Assembly (NCBI RefSeq): GCF_014202505.1
Contig: NZ_JACHGW010000001.1
Location: 1,302,001-1,366,000 of the forward strand
DNA length: 64,000 bases
DNA from: Armatimonas rosea
GTDB lineage: Bacteria; Armatimonadota; Armatimonadia; Armatimonadales; Armatimonadaceae
Reading direction: 5' to 3'
The notes under the pieces were generated by a model. It did no database searches and had not been told where the DNA came from. It saw only the letters and a list, made by a program, of their open reading frames with translations. Shown here piece after piece: positions 19,908 through 28,481 of the stretch. Every line of letters starts with the position of its first letter. Within the stretch, counting starts at the first letter, position 1. The translations under genes were made by a program, and so were the position numbers.

Positions 19908-22571
19908 CTATTTCTCAATCAGGTAGTAGAGCGTGTCGGGGCGCAGGAGGATGGTCTTGGCAGTGCCGAGCTTGGCGACCGGGTAGCCATTGGCATCTAG
20001 CGCCGTAACCGTGAGCGAGGCGGCATCGGGGCGGGTGAGGTTGACCGTGCCATTGAGGTTCTTGACGAGAATCGGGGCACCGCCGAGGCTCTCGATCCGC
20101 TGGAGCCCCTTGTCGCCGGGCGCGGTCTTCCAGCCCCAGTTCTTGTCCTCAGACATCACCTGGAGCAGGAGCTTTTTGGACGTGGCGATCGGCAGGCCAT
20201 CCAGGCTCACCAGGGTGATCGCACCGTAGTCGAGCTGGCTGGTGATGGTCATTCCGGGCAGGCTCACAGTGCCCGCATCAGCGAGGAAGCCCAGGAGGCC
20301 ATTGGCCTGTGGCGCGGCGATCACAGCGCGGCCACTGCCCCAGTTCCAGGCCAGCTCCCCGGTCGCGCTTCTTGCCACTTTCTTCGCGCGGTCGATTCCC
20401 GCAAGGCTGCCCAGCTTCGATGGTGCTCCGGCCTCGGAGATATTGGCACGCACCTGCCCGACCAAGTAGGCCAGCGGGTCGAGCGAGGGCAGTGTGTCTA
20501 GGGATTTGGTCTGGCCGCTTGGGAGATCGGCGGCGCGCAGGGCATCGAGGTTGACCGGGGCGCTGACCGGGGCACCTTGCAGCGCGAAGAGGCTGGCCTG
20601 CTTCAGGTTCACCTCGATAACGGTCGGGCCGGTCTTGACCAAGCCCTTGCGGAAGATCAGGGCGGCGGCGGGGGACTGGCCCAGCACACTCGGGACTTGC
20701 AGGTCGAACTTGCCGTGCTGCTGGCTCCAGCTCGGGCCGGAGAGGGCAAAGAAGTGGATCGCACTGGAGCCCTGGAGCGCGCCGTAGGCCGCCGCAAGGA
20801 TCGGCAGGTCGGCGCGGTAGCGGTTGGGCATGGGCCAGTTCACCTCGGAGACCATCGACGGTAGCCCGTTCCACTTGAGGTCAAAGAGTGGCAAGCCTTC
20901 GTCGGGCGACTTCAGCGCGGACTTATCCTCATACAGATCCCCGACACTCAGGCTGTAGCTGGCGCGTGGCCCCTCGTGCTTGCCGCCGAAGTAGCCATGG
21001 CGGTCCATCGCATCCAGACCCGTGTTGCTCCACTTGTCCAGCGGCCCCAGGAACCGCGCCTCACCCGTCACCCAGTTCGAGCCGTAGACACTGGCCTGAA
21101 AGCCGAGCTCGGTCTTGAGGTACTGGGCCGTGCTATCAAAGAACGCCCGCTGGCTCTGTGCCAGAAACGCGACCGTGTCTTGCGAGCGCAGGCTGCGCTG
21201 ATTCCCGAGGTTCCAGATCGGCAGGAACGCCGCACGCCCCTCGGTGGGCTTGTCTTTGGCATCGGGCTGCTTCCACGCCGCCAGGGCTGCCTCGACCGAG
21301 CCGTACTTCTTTGCCAGCCACTGCCCGAACTGCTTCTCTAAGAGCGCCATCTGTGGCGGGGGGATACTGTCGTAGGAGAAGGTCCAGAACAGGTAGCTGT
21401 CCTCGTTGCAGAGCTCGGTCAGGGCCACGGCGGGGTCGCGGCCCAGAGGCTCGCCGCTCGGGTTTGGGGCCGTGAGGAGGGTCTTCCACCAGCTCCGGTA
21501 GATCGCCTGAAACTCCGGGTTGAAGAAGAGCAGGGAGAAGGGCTTCTTGCCCGGGGTATAGCCCGCCAGCGAGTCGCCCGCGGGGATCTCCAGCCAGAGC
21601 GGGAAGTAGATCGAGAGGCAGGAGTAGATTCCCTCGCTCTTGAGCGCGGCCACGAAGCGCTGCAGGCCCGCGAGCTTCTCGGGGTCTATCGCGCGGAAGT
21701 TGTCGTCCTTCCAGAGCGCCCCATGGATCCGCACGAGGTTCACGCCTTTCTTCGCCAGGTCCCGCGCCAGGTAGCGCAGCGCTGCCGGGGGCATGCGGGT
21801 GAGCTCGCCGCCGGCATTGACCGCCCAGAAGCGCTCGGGCTGGCCGGTCTTGCTGTGCACAAAGCTCTCGCCCTTGCGGACAATAAACCCATTTTCGCCC
21901 GCGACTTTTTCATTGAGCCCACGCAGGTCGAGTGAGGTGGGCTGGAACGCATCTAAGTCGGGCTCGAAGGCAAACCAGCCGGGCTCGGTCCGGTTGAGCT
22001 TCTCGCCAGGCTTGCTCTTGCCGCGCGGGAGAAACGGGACCTTGGTGAGCACGAAGCAGTCGAAGGCCGCCGCGCCATTGTTCTCGGTCAGCTCGATGCG
22101 GAGCGTGTGCTTCCCCGCCGTGAGAGAGACCGTCCCCGCCCCGACCCAGTTCGCCCCCACAAACTGCCGAATCGATGCGTCATCGAGGAGGGCGGGGTCT
22201 TTCCCCACGAACTGCCAGGGCTGCTGGTCGAAGCGCCAGCGGAAGGGGCCGTGCTTCCAGAACTTGCGGGCGTAGAAGTCGTAGCTCCCCGCGCTGGGAG
22301 TTGTGACCTCGTACTCTAGAAACAGCGGCAGGCTCCGGGGCCCCTCCGCCCCGATCCAGGCCCCGCCGGAGAGAACGGCCTTCTCGGTGTCGTTGGCGGG
22401 CATAAACGAGTGGCGTGCGGGAAAGTTGGTCGCTCGGGGGCTCTCCGCCTCGAACCAGACAAAATCGCCCCCCCCGCCCCCAATCTTGGGGGAGCCTGGG
22501 TTTTGAGCACGCGCACACGCTCCAGTCAGGAGCCCCAACGCCATCGCCAGAAAAACAGTCCCTCGTCGCAT
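19908..22571 (-). CDS. Large secreted glycoside hydrolase (GH-A clan-like) with N-terminal CBM-like domain
   Basis: The ATG at 22571 gives 887 residues with a signal peptide whose 'GLLTGACA' could be a lipoprotein box. Residues ~30-160 look like a carbohydrate-binding beta-sandwich ('WFEAESPRATNFPARHSF', 'LTAGKHTLRIELTENNGAA'). A TIM-barrel cellulase-like domain follows ('FWAVNAGGELTRMPPAALR', 'GVNLVRIHGAL'). Candidate catalytic glutamates are in 'LTELCNEDS' (acid/base) and 'SMVSEVNWP' (nucleophile), the pattern of clan GH-A. A C-terminal beta region completes it. The substrate is unknown. It leads an operon with the DUF1080 gene. Another in-frame ATG lies at 22598. Confidence 0.8.
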   Translation of the reverse strand: MRRGTVFLAMALGLLTGACARAQNPGSPKIGGGGGDFVWFEAESPRATNFPARHSFMPANDTEKAVLSGGAWIGAEGPRSLPLFLEYEVTTPSAGSYDFYARKFWKHGPFRWRFDQQPWQFVGKDPALLDDASIRQFVGANWVGAGTVSLTAGKHTLRIELTENNGAAAFDCFVLTKVPFLPRGKSKPGEKLNRTEPGWFAFEPDLDAFQPTSLDLRGLNEKVAGENGFIVRKGESFVHSKTGQPERFWAVNAGGELTRMPPAALRYLARDLAKKGVNLVRIHGALWKDDNFRAIDPEKLAGLQRFVAALKSEGIYSCLSIYFPLWLEIPAGDSLAGYTPGKKPFSLLFFNPEFQAIYRSWWKTLLTAPNPSGEPLGRDPAVALTELCNEDSYLFWTFSYDSIPPPQMALLEKQFGQWLAKKYGSVEAALAAWKQPDAKDKPTEGRAAFLPIWNLGNQRSLRSQDTVAFLAQSQRAFFDSTAQYLKTELGFQASVYGSNWVTGEARFLGPLDKWSNTGLDAMDRHGYFGGKHEGPRASYSLSVGDLYEDKSALKSPDEGLPLFDLKWNGLPSMVSEVNWPMPNRYRADLPILAAAYGALQGSSAIHFFALSGPSWSQQHGKFDLQVPSVLGQSPAAALIFRKGLVKTGPTVIEVNLKQASLFALQGAPVSAPVNLDALRAADLPSGQTKSLDTLPSLDPLAYLVGQVRANISEAGAPSKLGSLAGIDRAKKVARSATGELAWNWGSGRAVIAAPQANGLLGFLADAGTVSLPGMTITSQLDYGAITLVSLDGLPIATSKKLLLQVMSEDKNWGWKTAPGDKGLQRIESLGGAPILVKNLNGTVNLTRPDAASLTVTALDANGYPVAKLGTAKTILLRPDTLYYLIEK

Positions 22572-22627
22572 GGTTGTTATCGTACCCGAACGAGACACGG
22601 CGTTCTAGCAAACGCGGTCCACGGGAC

Positions 22628-23920
22628 TTAGGCCGCTTTCGGGAGGTTTCGCGGATGGTCCCGCTCTTCGTCGAGGGCGCGTCGTGCCTCGGTCAGGAGC
22701 TCTTGGGCCGTGCGGCCCTGCTCGGGGTGCCAGGCGGTGCCGGTGACAATGCGTAGGGGGAGGTGGACCTGGGGACCCACATCCTCTAGAACACTGGTCA
22801 GGCGGCGTGCGGCGACCTCGACCTGAGGTCCCGTTCCCCCGAGGACTGCCAGGAGCGTGCTTCCCTCGCCGCGGCCCGCCATGTCCATCCGGCGGATCGA
22901 TGTTCGTAGCCGATTGCCACAGGCCTCCATGGCTTCGTCGTAGGCGCGCCCGCTACTGGGAATACCCTGGATCTGGAACTGGATCACCGAGATGGGCATG
23001 CCCGCTCGGACAGCACGTGAGATGCCCTCATCGAGGCGCGCCACGAGGTGCTCGTAGGTGTAGAGGCCGGTGTAGGGATCGACAATCGAGTGCTCACGCT
23101 GGCGCCGGCGGTCGTAGGCCTCGGCCTCCCCGAGGAGCTTGCCGAGCCGGTCTACCGCCTTGCGCAGGGTCACCGAGACATAGTTACAGGAGACACTGAG
23201 CTTGGTGGCGATCTCGGTCTGGTTGAGGTTGCGGAAGTAGAACTCGTAGACCACTTGCTGCTCAAAGGGCCGGAGCCGCTGGATGAGCTGGCGCAGGACA
23301 ATGCGGTTCTCCACATGGATCGCCATCGGCTCGTCGTCGTCGTCGATGGACTCCAAGATGCCGTCGTAGTCCCCGCCCGCGCTATCGTCGTAGGAGACCA
23401 CCCGGAAGGTACCCCGCGATGCCTGGATCTCCTCGACCGTCTCCACGGGGATCGCGAGGACGGCCGCGATCTCGCCCGACGTGGGCTCGCGCTCCAGCTG
23501 GGCGGTGAGCTGCTCGATGGCGCGCTCCAGGCGCCCCGCAGTCTCCTGGAGCCAGGCGGGCTCGCGGATCATGCGGCTGCGGTCGCGGAGAAAGTGCCGG
23601 ATGGCCCCCCCGATAAAGTGGGTTGCGTAGGTGGAGAAGCGGACACCCTTGCCGGGGTCGTAGTACTCTAGGGCAGAGAGGAGGCCCAGATAGCCTTCCT
23701 GCGCGAGGTCCTCCAGCGGCTCTCCCGTGCCTAAAAACTTCCGTGCCACCGACTCCACAAGGGGGCCGTGAGCGCGTGCAATCTTCTCGCGGAGTACCGG
23801 AAGGGGGAGATCGCCCAAGGAGCGACCACCCCCCTCGCCACGGCGGCGTGCGTACTCCTGGAGCCAGCGGTGTAGTGTTGCTTCGGCAACAGGTTTGGTG
23901 CCATCAGTTAAGAGAGCCAT
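22628..23920 (-). CDS. Sigma-70 factor (SigB/FliA type) fused to a degenerate GGDEF-like domain
   Basis: From the ATG at 23920 the protein is 430 residues. Sigma region 2 is at about 45-115 ('EPLEDLAQEGYLGLLSALEY', 'FSTYATHFIGGAIRHFLRD'), region 3 at 115-190 ('LTAQLEREPTSGEIAAVLAI') and region 4 at 200-260 ('NLNQTEIATKLSVSCNYVSV'). Residues ~275-425 resemble a diguanylate cyclase domain: 'DPYTGLYTYEHLVARLDEG' at the start and 'TAQELLTEARRAL' at the end. The GGDEF loop reads 'GEGSTLL', so it cannot be an active cyclase. It is divergent from pilT. A start at 24043 would add 41 residues and overlap the pilT start. Confidence 0.85.
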   Translation of the reverse strand: MALLTDGTKPVAEATLHRWLQEYARRRGEGGGRSLGDLPLPVLREKIARAHGPLVESVARKFLGTGEPLEDLAQEGYLGLLSALEYYDPGKGVRFSTYATHFIGGAIRHFLRDRSRMIREPAWLQETAGRLERAIEQLTAQLEREPTSGEIAAVLAIPVETVEEIQASRGTFRVVSYDDSAGGDYDGILESIDDDDEPMAIHVENRIVLRQLIQRLRPFEQQVVYEFYFRNLNQTEIATKLSVSCNYVSVTLRKAVDRLGKLLGEAEAYDRRRQREHSIVDPYTGLYTYEHLVARLDEGISRAVRAGMPISVIQFQIQGIPSSGRAYDEAMEACGNRLRTSIRRMDMAGRGEGSTLLAVLGGTGPQVEVAARRLTSVLEDVGPQVHLPLRIVTGTAWHPEQGRTAQELLTEARRALDEERDHPRNLPKAA

Positions 23921-24041
23921 AAGCTTATGTTCTTTATCGGCTTGTATCGCTGGTTTTTCCAGTCCCTTTTTTCGGAAGGGCTTTGGGAAATCCCGAATCA
24001 AAGCCTGAAGATTATGCGAGAGTACTCCGAAAATCTTGAGC

Positions 24042-25334
24042 ATGAACTCGATTCTCCCTGACGACGACTTGGCACCACTGCTGCCGACCGCCGGCTCACC
24101 ACGCCCGGCTGCGACCAACGCCCCGGCTGCTCTGGACGGGACACAGATGCTCCGTGGCCTCCTGGAAGATGGGGCTCTGCTCATGCCTCCAGGGAGCTCC
24201 CACGCCGCGTCCTTGGGACTGGAAAGCTTCGACGATAACCGTAGCGCTGCCTCCAGTGTCACCCCCCTGGCCGATACGCATATCGATGACATCCTGCGCT
24301 ACAGCCAGCAGGTGAAGGCGTCGGATATCCACCTGACCGTGAACCTGCCCCCGATGATCCGCGTCGATGGCAAGCTGATCCCGACGCCTTGGGAGACGGT
24401 CACCCCGCGTGAGGCCCAGCGCCTGATCTACGATATCCTGCTCTCCGACCAGATCGAGCGCTACGAGCGCACCAAGGAGCTGGACTTTTCCTACGGCGTG
24501 CATGGGGTGGGGCGCTTCCGCTTCAATGTCTACCGACAGCGTGGCTCGGTGGGGTGTGCGATGCGTGCCATTCCCGCCAAGATCCCCTCGCTGGAGTCGC
24601 TGCGCCTGCCCCCCGTGCTCAAGGAGCTCACCAAGAAGCACTCAGGCGTGATCCTCGTGACCGGTCCCACCGGCTCCGGAAAGTCGACAACAATTGCGTC
24701 GATGATCGATGTGATCAACGCCGAGCGCCCGGTGCACATCCTGACCATGGAGGACCCGATCGAGTACATCCACCAGCACAAAGTTGGGATGGTCAACCAG
24801 CGCGAGATTGGGCAGGACTCCGAGTCGTTTGCCAACTGTATCCGCGCCGCCCTTCGTGAGGACCCCGATATCATCCTGGTCGGTGAGATGCGTGATAAAG
24901 AGACCATCGCCGCAGCACTGACCCTTGCGGAGACGGGCCACCTGGTCTTTGGGACGCTCCACACCCGCAGCGCCCCCGCAACAGTCGACCGTATTATCGA
25001 TGTCTTTCCCGCTGACCAGCAGGACCAGATCCGGGTGATGTTTGCCGGCTCGCTCCAGGCCGTGGTTGCCCAGCAGCTCCTTCCGCAAGTGGGGGGGGGA
25101 CGTGTTGCCGCCATTGAGATCATGGTCGCCACCGCCGCGATCCGCAACCTGATCCGTGAGGGCAAGAGCCACCAGCTCCTGAGCTCGATCGAGACCGGTG
25201 CCCAGTACGGCATGCAGCAGATGGACAAGGTCCTGGCAGAGCTTCACCGCTCCGGGATGGTCACGATGGAAGAGGCTGCCACCCGCTGTAACGACCGCGA
25301 TAACTTTATGCGCCACCTTAAGGGAGGGAACTAA
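24042..25334 (+). CDS. pilT: Type IV pilus retraction ATPase
   Basis: PilT powers pilus retraction in twitching motility. The core starts near residue 85 ('DILRYSQQVKASDIHLTVNL', 'PPMIRVDGKL') and carries Walker A 'TGPTGSGKSTT', an Asp box, Walker B 'DIILVGEMRDKETIAAAL' and the His box 'FGTLHTRSAPATVDRIIDVF'. The N-terminal 80 residues are a Pro/Ala-rich extension longer than usual. The ATG at 24042 is preferred, with a TTG two codons upstream possible. pilC follows after 6 bp. The promoter must lie in the 121-bp gap shared with the divergent sigma/GGDEF gene. Confidence 0.95.
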   Translation: MNSILPDDDLAPLLPTAGSPRPAATNAPAALDGTQMLRGLLEDGALLMPPGSSHAASLGLESFDDNRSAASSVTPLADTHIDDILRYSQQVKASDIHLTVNLPPMIRVDGKLIPTPWETVTPREAQRLIYDILLSDQIERYERTKELDFSYGVHGVGRFRFNVYRQRGSVGCAMRAIPAKIPSLESLRLPPVLKELTKKHSGVILVTGPTGSGKSTTIASMIDVINAERPVHILTMEDPIEYIHQHKVGMVNQREIGQDSESFANCIRAALREDPDIILVGEMRDKETIAAALTLAETGHLVFGTLHTRSAPATVDRIIDVFPADQQDQIRVMFAGSLQAVVAQQLLPQVGGGRVAAIEIMVATAAIRNLIREGKSHQLLSSIETGAQYGMQQMDKVLAELHRSGMVTMEEAATRCNDRDNFMRHLKGGN

Positions 25335-25340
25335 GCTTCC

Positions 25341-26555
25341 ATGCCAACATTTGTCTATGACGTAATCGACTCCTCGGGCAACAATGTCAAGGGGAAGATG
25401 GAGGCCGATAGCGAGGGAGCGGTCCTGAGCCGCCTCCATGAGCAGCGCCTCCATATCCTCAGTATCAGCGAGCAAAAAGCCAGCGCGTTCTCATCGGTGG
25501 GCAGCAAGAAGGCGATGGGGGCTCCCAAGCTCCAGTCTCTGGTGGTCTTCTCGCGGCAGTTTGCGACGATGGTCGATGCGGGGCTTGCGGTGCTCAAGTG
25601 CCTGGACATCCTGGAGCAACAGACCAAGGACCTCCCCCTGAAGCAGTCGCTCAACGCCATCAAGCGCGATGTCCAGACCGGTGTCTCGCTGGGCGATGCC
25701 ATGGCCAAGCACACCAACTGCTTCTCCAAGCTCTACATCAACATGATCCGCGCCGCCGAGCTGGGAGGTATCCTGGATACCATTCTTGACCGCCTGGCGC
25801 AGTTCCTCGAAAAAGAGCAGGAGATTCGTCAGAAGGTCAAGTCCGCCCTTACCTACCCGATCATTGTCTTGTGCTTCGCCATGATTATCCTGGCGGCGAT
25901 GTTCTTGTTCATCCTGCCGACCTTTAAGCAGATGTTTGCCGATATGGGGGCGCAGATGCCCGCCATGACCGAGGCGCTCTTTAACATGTCGGACTTCATG
26001 GTCCACAACTGGTATCTGTTTGTCTTTGCGCCGCTGTTTGCCGCCATTGCGATCAAGCAGTACGGCAAGACCCCCGACGGTGCCTATAAGATCGACCAGG
26101 TCAAGCTCAAGATCCCCATCATGGGAGAGATCGTCCTCAAGCTCTCCGTGGCGCGCTTCTGCCGCACGTTTGGTACGCTGCTGAGCTCCGGTGTCCCGAT
26201 GATGCGTGCGATCGAGATCGTGGCGGAGACTGCGGGCAACGAGGTGCTCTGCCGCGCGATCAACGATACCAAGATCGCTCTGCGGGAAGGAAGCCGCCTC
26301 TCGCCGCCACTGGTAAAGTCTGGCCTCTTCCCTCCGATGGTGACCCACATGATCGATATCGGTGAGGAGACCGGCCGCATGTCCGAGATGCTGGTCAAGG
26401 TCGCGGAGTTCTACGAGCAGGAAGTCGATGCGACCGTCAAGGCGCTCACCAGCTTGATCGAGCCGATCTTGATTGTCTTCCTCGGGGTGATCGTCGGGTT
26501 TATCGTGATCTCGATCATGGGGCCGATGTTCTCCATCATCAACCAGATCCGCTAA
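25341..26555 (+). CDS. pilC: Type IV pilus/type II secretion inner-membrane platform protein
   Basis: This 404-residue protein has two GspF repeats: cytoplasmic helical domains at about 65-190 ('LVVFSRQFATMVDAGLAVLK') and 270-390 ('VARFCRTFGTLLSSGVPMMR'), each followed by hydrophobic helices ('IIVLCFAMIILAAMFLFIL' and 'LIVFLGVIVGFIVISIMGP'). It anchors the pilus assembly ATPases in the inner membrane. The N-terminal 50 residues match the PilC N-terminus ('TFVYDVIDSSGNNVKGKMEA'). It forms an operon with pilT. Assembly ATPase pilB is not in the window. Confidence 0.95.
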   Translation: MPTFVYDVIDSSGNNVKGKMEADSEGAVLSRLHEQRLHILSISEQKASAFSSVGSKKAMGAPKLQSLVVFSRQFATMVDAGLAVLKCLDILEQQTKDLPLKQSLNAIKRDVQTGVSLGDAMAKHTNCFSKLYINMIRAAELGGILDTILDRLAQFLEKEQEIRQKVKSALTYPIIVLCFAMIILAAMFLFILPTFKQMFADMGAQMPAMTEALFNMSDFMVHNWYLFVFAPLFAAIAIKQYGKTPDGAYKIDQVKLKIPIMGEIVLKLSVARFCRTFGTLLSSGVPMMRAIEIVAETAGNEVLCRAINDTKIALREGSRLSPPLVKSGLFPPMVTHMIDIGEETGRMSEMLVKVAEFYEQEVDATVKALTSLIEPILIVFLGVIVGFIVISIMGPMFSIINQIR

Positions 26556-26623: not shown

Positions 26624-26720
26624 TTGGTGTATAATGGGGTTCCGGCGCGGCAGCTCTGCCGCGCCGTCCTACATTCTAAGTTCTATTAATTCTTGTACGC
26701 AAGAAAGGATCCTGCCCTCG

Positions 26721-28481
26721 ATGAACCTGGACGACAGCGTCGAGTCCCTCAAAGCCCGTATTCTCAGCCTGGAATCCGAAGTCAATCAGAAGTCCCAGGC
26801 GGTCAGTCAGCTCGAGAAGATGATCAAGGACCTTCAACAGAAGGTTCAGACTGCCAATGAGAATGCCCAACCTACCGCAGAGCTCTCAGAGCTAGAGGAA
26901 ACTCTAAAGCGTCTTATGACGCGAATTGCAATGATTGTTCAGGGCGCTAAGTGTCTGTTTATGATCCATGACCAAGAGACACGCGAGCTCTATGCGGGCA
27001 AGCCTGCTCTTGGTTTTGAAGAGGGGCAGATCGAGGAGCTCCGCTTCAATGAAGGCACCGGGGCCTCGGGTGTCTGCTACGCTACCAGCAAGGCAGTCAA
27101 TATCTACGACACCGAGTCTGATGCTCGGGAAGACTGTCAGACCTTTACCTCGCTGGGCATCCGCAATGGAATCGCCGTGCCGCTCATCGTGGAGAAGCGC
27201 GACGACGAGACCAACGCCGTTGTTGACCGCAAGACCATTGGGGTGATCTGGGTCTTCAACAAGAAGTTTGGCGGGGTCTTTGTGGACGAGGACATTCAGC
27301 TCCTGGAGCGCATGTCCAAGAACGCGGCTGCGGTGATCAACACGGCCTCGACCTTCCGCAAGGTGGTGGAGGAAAAAGAGCAGCTCCACGAGATGACCGA
27401 CGCTCTGACCGCCGGTCTCGTGATGATCGGGCGCAATGGCCGTGTCCTCCAGATGAACTCGTCGGCGCGGCGCATCTTCGGCCTGGAGCCCAGCGAGGTG
27501 CTAGGCGTGCGCACCTACGACCAGCTGGTCAAGGACGATACCGTCCGCGAGGTGCTGGCCCGTGCGCTCTCCGAGGAGATCCAGGAAGAGGTGACCATCA
27601 ACGATAGCACCGCCGATGCGTCGCGCACCTTCCAGATCCAGTCCACCGTGGTCAAGAACGAGAACAGCGAGATGGTGGGCACCGCGGCGATCTTTAGCGA
27701 CATCACCGAGCTAAAGAATATCGACAAGCTCAAGACCGCGTTTGTCTCGACCGTCTCCCACGAGCTGCGCACCCCGATGACCTCGATCAAGGGCTTTATC
27801 TCCACGCTGCTCATGGACGAGGACGGGACGATGTTCCAGCACTCGGACCGCCTGGAGTTCTACGGGATTGTCGATAAAGAGTGTGACCGCCTCAAGCGCC
27901 TGATCGATGACCTGCTCAACGTGAGCCGTATCGAGGCTGGTGCATCGATGCTGCCCAACTTTGAGGATGTTCAGCTCCACGAGCTGGTCAAGAAGGCCAT
28001 CATGATCGACAATGGCTCGACCTACAAGAAGGACAACCACACCCTGGACTTCACGATCGACTCCGATGTCCCCGAGGTGATCGAGGCCGATGGCGATAAG
28101 TTCGAGCAGATCCTCCACAACCTGGTGGGCAACTCGCTGAAGTACTCCCCGGATGGCGGCCCGGTCCACCTGCACGTGTCCCGAAAGGACGAGAACACGC
28201 TGCAGTTTGCGATCTCCGACAAGGGCCTGGGAATGACCCCCGAGTTTCTCCAGAAGTTCGGCCAGAAGTTCGCCCGCGCCGACAACCGCGATACCCGCTC
28301 CATCAACGGCACGGGAATCGGGGCGTTCCTGGTGAAGAACTTTGTCGAGGTACACAACGGCGACATGTGGGCCGAGTCCGAGGGCCTGGGCAAGGGCACC
28401 ACGGCCTACTTCACCCTCCCGATCAAGCAGCCCGAGCTCGACGAAAACGCCGAGTCTCTCTCTAGCCGCGTCGCCGGGTAG
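26721..28481 (+). CDS. GAF-PAS sensor histidine kinase
   Basis: The ATG at 26721 follows AAGAAAGGA and gives 586 residues. The order is an N-terminal coiled coil (5-60), a GAF domain (about 65-215), a PAS domain (about 225-340, 'GLVMIGRNGRVLQMNSSARR'), a HisKA box with the phosphorylatable His ('STVSHELRTPMTSIKG') and a HATPase_c domain ('LHNLVGNSLKYSPDGG', 'ISDKGLGMTPEFL', 'GTGIGAFLVKNFV'). There is no membrane segment, so it senses a cytoplasmic or redox-type signal. All catalytic boxes look intact. A dedicated intact response regulator is not adjacent, and the next two genes are degenerate signalling proteins. An upstream start at 26634 is unlikely. Confidence 0.92.
   Translation: MNLDDSVESLKARILSLESEVNQKSQAVSQLEKMIKDLQQKVQTANENAQPTAELSELEETLKRLMTRIAMIVQGAKCLFMIHDQETRELYAGKPALGFEEGQIEELRFNEGTGASGVCYATSKAVNIYDTESDAREDCQTFTSLGIRNGIAVPLIVEKRDDETNAVVDRKTIGVIWVFNKKFGGVFVDEDIQLLERMSKNAAAVINTASTFRKVVEEKEQLHEMTDALTAGLVMIGRNGRVLQMNSSARRIFGLEPSEVLGVRTYDQLVKDDTVREVLARALSEEIQEEVTINDSTADASRTFQIQSTVVKNENSEMVGTAAIFSDITELKNIDKLKTAFVSTVSHELRTPMTSIKGFISTLLMDEDGTMFQHSDRLEFYGIVDKECDRLKRLIDDLLNVSRIEAGASMLPNFEDVQLHELVKKAIMIDNGSTYKKDNHTLDFTIDSDVPEVIEADGDKFEQILHNLVGNSLKYSPDGGPVHLHVSRKDENTLQFAISDKGLGMTPEFLQKFGQKFARADNRDTRSINGTGIGAFLVKNFVEVHNGDMWAESEGLGKGTTAYFTLPIKQPELDENAESLSSRVAG

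Follow-up and report, generated by a model that had tools for sequence, protein, structure and literature searches.

Can a sigma factor read a second messenger in its own polypeptide chain? The question is raised by a gene in Armatimonas rosea, within the 64,000-nt stretch of DNA analysed here (the window), that joins a sigma factor to a GGDEF-like domain and lies beside pilT and pilC. We argue that its product is probably a one-component regulator, a sigma factor that responds to c-di-GMP and is linked to type IV pili; its ligand, dimerisation, gating and targets we infer. The locus is laid out as follows.

22628 to 23920, minus strand: sigma-GGDEF fusion gene, 430 aa, ATG at 23920-23918; full-length homologs are known.
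23934 to 23941, minus strand: GCCGATAA 5' of the sigma start, with the look of a flagellar-type -10 element and GAAA 14 nt upstream; weak here, partly kept in the close ortholog L114.
24042 to 25334, plus strand: pilT, type IV pilus retraction ATPase (TIGR01420, 480 bits against a cut-off of 319; PF00437).
25341 to 26555, plus strand: pilC, type IV pilus inner-membrane platform protein (PF00482; NF052607 is the best match, below its cut-off; a conserved neighbour).
26634 to 28481, plus strand: GAF-PAS histidine kinase, 3' of pilC; one is found close to the locus as well in L038, a relative of the same genus, and in L048 and L053 of lineage f18.

The minus-strand frame stays open from 22628 to 24043, and the first-pass annotation began the gene at 24042. 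A start at 24042/24043 must be rejected since it overlaps the pilT start codon at 24042 and since L114 starts at the equivalent of M42 in the window. The coding sequence is therefore 22628-23920, which leaves 121 nt between the start of the sigma-GGDEF gene and the pilT ATG. The fusion frame is not a product of chance because homologs spanning its full length, most of them 31-74% identical, are found throughout the Armatimonadota. Directly 3' of the gene is an 896-aa protein (19908-22598, minus strand) that is probably secreted; a Pfam search of it at 1e-5 gave no match.

The features within the fusion protein, from its N-terminal side, are these.

23573 to 23779, minus strand: Sigma-70 region 2 (PF04542, 4.8e-20), core RNA polymerase and -10 binding.
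23369 to 23545, minus strand: Sigma-70 region 3 (PF04539, 3.7e-9).
23144 to 23284, minus strand: Sigma-70 region 4 (PF04545, 9.2e-9), the -35 binding helix-turn-helix.
23093 to 23188, minus strand: continuous long helix from the sigma4 recognition helix into the stalk (DSSP of the model, 246-277 in model numbering, 286-317 of P0001).
22646 to 23086, minus strand: degenerate GGDEF domain (PF00990, full-length; AlphaFold2 model superposed on GGDEF structures, VIA-align Z 21.9, rmsd 1.6 A over 145 aa).
22883 to 22894, minus strand: I-site RxxD, R384 R M D387 (P0001 numbering), a strictly invariant pair in the alignments.
22853 to 22867, minus strand: former catalytic GG[DE]EF loop, here EGSTL (sequence and family alignment).

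Sigma-70 regions 2, 3 and 4 are all found, which makes the protein a member of that family. The best NCBIfam subfamily is SigB/SigF/SigG (TIGR02980) at 158.5 bits, below the curated cut-off of 234 bits; against the FliA/WhiG family (TIGR02479) the score is 105.3 bits, below a cut-off of 189.6 bits. When the family profile is compared with solved structures, SigB of the S. aureus polymerase comes first (8x6g, 1.2e-49) and the sigma factor of 1l0o next. The WhiG chain in 6pfv, the RsiG-WhiG-c-di-GMP complex, ranks about ninth. Judged by its sequence the window protein is an alternative group 3 sigma factor, SigB/F/G-like rather than FliA-like. It had been called SigB/FliA-type; the SigB part of that label agrees with the best subfamily and the 8x6g match, and the FliA part has to be dropped given the low score and the separate FliA/WhiG-class gene in most genomes. 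TIGR02479 is matched in 61 of 61 genomes, and its cut-off is passed by another gene in 45 of them. That the fusion is the phylum's flagellar sigma factor is ruled out by this separate gene together with the lack of any flagellin match in the window's genome. It must be noted that the FliA/WhiG-class sigma gene at G000:C4:220318-220989 (L007) has one in-frame TAA. With no flagellin found it looks as if flagella were recently lost, though the stop may be a sequencing error. In G001, a relative of the same genus, flagellins are present and the FliA/WhiG-class gene has no inner stop.

The C-terminal part had been described as having diguanylate-cyclase topology, with a model of the fold proposed as the check. 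PF00990 matches over its full length (8.4e-10; 39 bits, cut-off 23.8), pLDDT is about 97 in most of the domain, and on the superposition what follows residue ~315 is a GGDEF fold and not something unrelated. The protein reads GRGEGSTLL where RYGGDEF is expected, so the 'GEGSTLL' replacement seen at the outset is real. GG[DE]EF occurs in 0 of 81 aligned members, which is not what an active diguanylate cyclase looks like. Across 60 non-redundant members (<80% identity) the catalytic positions 393-396 have entropies of 2.3-3.4 bits, and few positions in the domain vary more than those of GG[DE]E. On these motifs the GGDEF domain is catalytically dead across the family.

The I-site is another matter. 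RxxD is present in 81 of 81 aligned members that have lost the catalytic motif, which is the pattern of a degenerate receptor. R384 and D387 are the domain's only strictly invariant columns among the 60 non-redundant members. A second, separate alignment gives the same pair, and an alignment of the GGDEF domain alone gives it with R343 invariant too. Among the 60, near invariance extends to R336, E339 and R343, and R414 is conserved in 58; R346, which stands in the place of WspR R198, is an arginine in just 39. In a profile alignment with WspR the R384/D387 pair falls on its RSSD (R242/D245; in PleD R359/D362), the site of product inhibition by c-di-GMP, and by position R414 corresponds to the second arginine of PleD (R390). 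The RxxD inhibitory site is the c-di-GMP docking site of diguanylate cyclases.

This conservation was not directly selected for, since the loci were retrieved by two patterns in the sigma part. Nor does the GGDEF fold force the arginine: RxxD is found in 12 of the 27 intact GGDEF domains of the window's genome (a hand count), and the degenerate FimX has no R at this position. Divergent exceptions lose part of the motif (RPAN in L061, QAAD in L075). Lineage f22 (L077, L076; genomes G042 and G055) keeps the sigma factor and is missing the GGDEF domain, possibly a natural case of domain loss. Each of these two genomes has only two strong GGDEF genes. RxxD alone is no proof of c-di-GMP binding. 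The first-pass annotation had left the choice between c-di-GMP and GTP; the conserved RxxD makes c-di-GMP the likely predicted ligand. Since conservation is lacking at the substrate and metal site positions, GTP is an unlikely one. We are fairly confident in predicting that the GGDEF domain of this sigma factor binds c-di-GMP.

The same fusion was to be sought in related genomes, and it recurs throughout the Armatimonadota. A full-length homolog is present in about 40 of the 61 genomes searched. Scanning 85,000 species genomes with the two patterns gave 249 relatives. The titles of the best 80 name Armatimonadota or one of its sub-taxa (Chthonomonas, Fimbriimonadales, Capsulimonadaceae, Armatimonadaceae and Hebobacteria), or simply a 'bacterium'. 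The fusion also goes with cyclases. The median number of GGDEF genes per genome is 8 with it and 2 without (p=5.8e-5 when collapsed by lineage), with relatedness, genome completeness and lifestyle only partly controlled; the association could reflect lifestyle or genome quality. Presence and absence were assigned by hand, leaving out G022, G036, G042, G055 and G060, which have this type of sigma factor but a domain that is missing or barely recognisable. The three genomes with zero GGDEF genes are all without the fusion; the window's genome has 33 strong GGDEF domains.

It is worth considering what lies around the gene in these genomes. The identity of pilT in the window is certain and that of pilC is well supported. 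Conserved adjacency to pil genes had been set as a check, and it holds: pilC is present in 55 of 80 loci (the best 80 of 249 relatives), and in 50 it shares the strand of the sigma gene and lies 5' of it. Some loci without pilC are cut by contig ends. Where pilC is upstream of the sigma gene it is often preceded by pilT. When all neighbours are clustered without any query, the commonest are pilC, pilT and a secretin-like gene. No pil linkage was seen in lineages f5, f9, f16, f23 and f24, and no anti-sigma gene stood out among the recurrent neighbours of sigma-GGDEF loci. The head-to-head arrangement with pilT-pilC given in the first-pass annotation is real here but local. The sigma-GGDEF gene usually adjoins pilC/pilT as an operon, co-directional and downstream of pilC in most lineages, and is divergent only in the window's family.

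The region upstream of these genes was searched for TAAA-N14-16-GCCGATAA, after the example of a Rubrobacter study (PMC8325347). In three f2 (Capsulimonadaceae-type) loci an exact copy stands 37-95 nt 5' of pilC, and five f5-type loci have one 17-25 nt 5' of the sigma gene; for 40 composition-shuffled motifs the means were 0 and 0.05 such loci, respectively. The window locus has only a weak version. Elsewhere the motif precedes flagellin-, FlgG-, FliL- and CheA-like genes, as read by eye. Since it stands before flagellar-type genes and 45 of the 61 genomes have a separate gene that passes TIGR02479, the sigma-GGDEF gene probably belongs to a FliA/WhiG regulon in the f2 and f5-type lineages. 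The separate gene also makes a cascade from FliA to sigma-GGDEF at least as likely as autoregulation through this motif. A promoter motif of sigma-GGDEF's own was not found. A PAS-GGDEF-EAL protein has an exact flagellar-type promoter 55 nt ahead of its likely start (G000:C2:701851-701878, L224), as do the WhiG-driven c-di-GMP enzyme genes of Rubrobacter (PMC8325347). Short proteins that by eye look like the anti-sigma factor FlgM lie behind a flagellar-type promoter in L220 (G023) and L272 (G030); G023 has no flagellin match.

We propose that such a protein would work as follows. The dead GGDEF domain would bind c-di-GMP at the retained I-site through R384 and D387, probably with R414. Binding would put the domain into another state; the simplest possibility is that c-di-GMP bridges two protomers, as it does when it inhibits the cyclases that make it. 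The change would pass along the continuous helix from the GGDEF domain to the sigma4 recognition helix, and the sigma factor's ability to engage RNA polymerase or the -35 element would be altered. The likely output would include the adjoining type IV pilus genes. The stalk helix stretch is covered too by the structure matches to entries of WspR and DgcB (e.g. the WspR-GCN4 fusion 3i5c), and in the model the single helix suggests a direct mechanical coupling of the sensor to -35 recognition. That c-di-GMP gates the sigma factor's activity is, we think, likely. We would place the pilus genes among its targets with slightly better than even confidence, and we lean only slightly towards c-di-GMP switching the sigma factor off rather than on. 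Taken at its widest, the proposal is that sigma factors of this class, spread through the phylum, read the second messenger in their own chain without an anti-sigma, one helix transmitting the signal that reprograms RNA polymerase for surface and pilus genes; to this we give even chances.

One can imagine other scenarios for the same protein. The GGDEF domain could be free of any ligand and serve as a platform for dimerisation or for docking a pilus protein, an anti-sigma or an active cyclase, with RxxD as a protein contact. Loss of the substrate site fits this, a stalk helix of this kind is common in GGDEF proteins that dimerise, and the near invariance of R336, E339 and R343 hints at an interface outside the I-site. 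However, the most conserved pair is exactly the one that contacts c-di-GMP in cyclases, and genomes without cyclases have no fusion, so we consider a ligand-free platform unlikely. Residual or heterodimeric cyclase activity, or the sensing of GTP instead of c-di-GMP, might be expected of a GGDEF fold, GTP being the substrate of the family. With the GG[DE]E positions free to vary and the metal/GTP stretch unconserved, GTP sensing and residual activity are rejected on motif loss, and this scenario is improbable in the extreme.

A further alternative keeps the c-di-GMP-responsive sigma factor but does not make the pilus genes its main targets. Their linkage would then reflect shared upstream control, with co-transcription from a FliA/WhiG-type promoter, in line with the exact motif before pilC in the three f2 loci and before the sigma gene in the f5-type loci; the sigma gene is also away from pil genes in several lineages. 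Yet pil genes lead the recurrent neighbours even where the promoter is not seen, and we regard this alternative as quite improbable. A c-di-GMP-gated sigma factor acting on pilus genes is the scenario we prefer. If it is true, c-di-GMP picks promoters by binding the sigma subunit itself, which would be the most direct link from messenger to initiation. The Armatimonadota are a phylum with very little molecular biology, and the test would be easy with a soluble-looking protein of ~430 aa and a two-residue site.

We found no description of a sigma-GGDEF fusion in the open-access literature, among the titles, abstracts and passages searched. On sequence it appears to be known parts in a new arrangement, GGDEF receptors and C-terminally extended sigma factors each being known separately. 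FliA/WhiG sigma factors share the group 3 architecture of the window protein, but it falls under the TIGR02479 cut-off that another gene passes in 45 of 61 genomes. FimX is the best PDB sequence match of the single GGDEF domain and is likewise a degenerate GGDEF protein, one that controls twitching. It binds c-di-GMP via its EAL domain. Its GGDEF domain is without the R of RxxD, however, and it is not a sigma factor. PelD and PopA are catalytically dead and use RxxD for c-di-GMP binding. Both are GGDEF-domain receptors of c-di-GMP (PMC10519070), but neither is joined to a sigma factor. We know of no second messenger for the ECF56 sigma factor SigG1. It has a built-in C-terminal SnoaL_2 domain (PMC7730460), but that SnoaL-like domain is unrelated and the architecture is a minimal sigma2-sigma4 one. 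The closest case is RsiG-WhiG of Streptomyces, also linked to type IV pili in Rubrobacter, which its authors describe as the one sigma-anti-sigma complex known to be a target of c-di-GMP (PMC8325347); we found no other c-di-GMP-gated sigma factor in the open-access literature. If our proposal is true, the window protein is a second, independent solution to the type IV pilus problem that RsiG-WhiG solves. The likeness is a c-di-GMP-gated sigma factor linked, in Rubrobacter, to type IV pilus genes (PMC8325347). The sigma factor there is WhiG, whereas the one in the window is SigB/F/G-like. In RsiG-WhiG c-di-GMP sits on the coiled coil of a separate anti-sigma at the sigma interface (PMC8325347), whereas the window protein is a candidate for a GGDEF sensor in the same chain.
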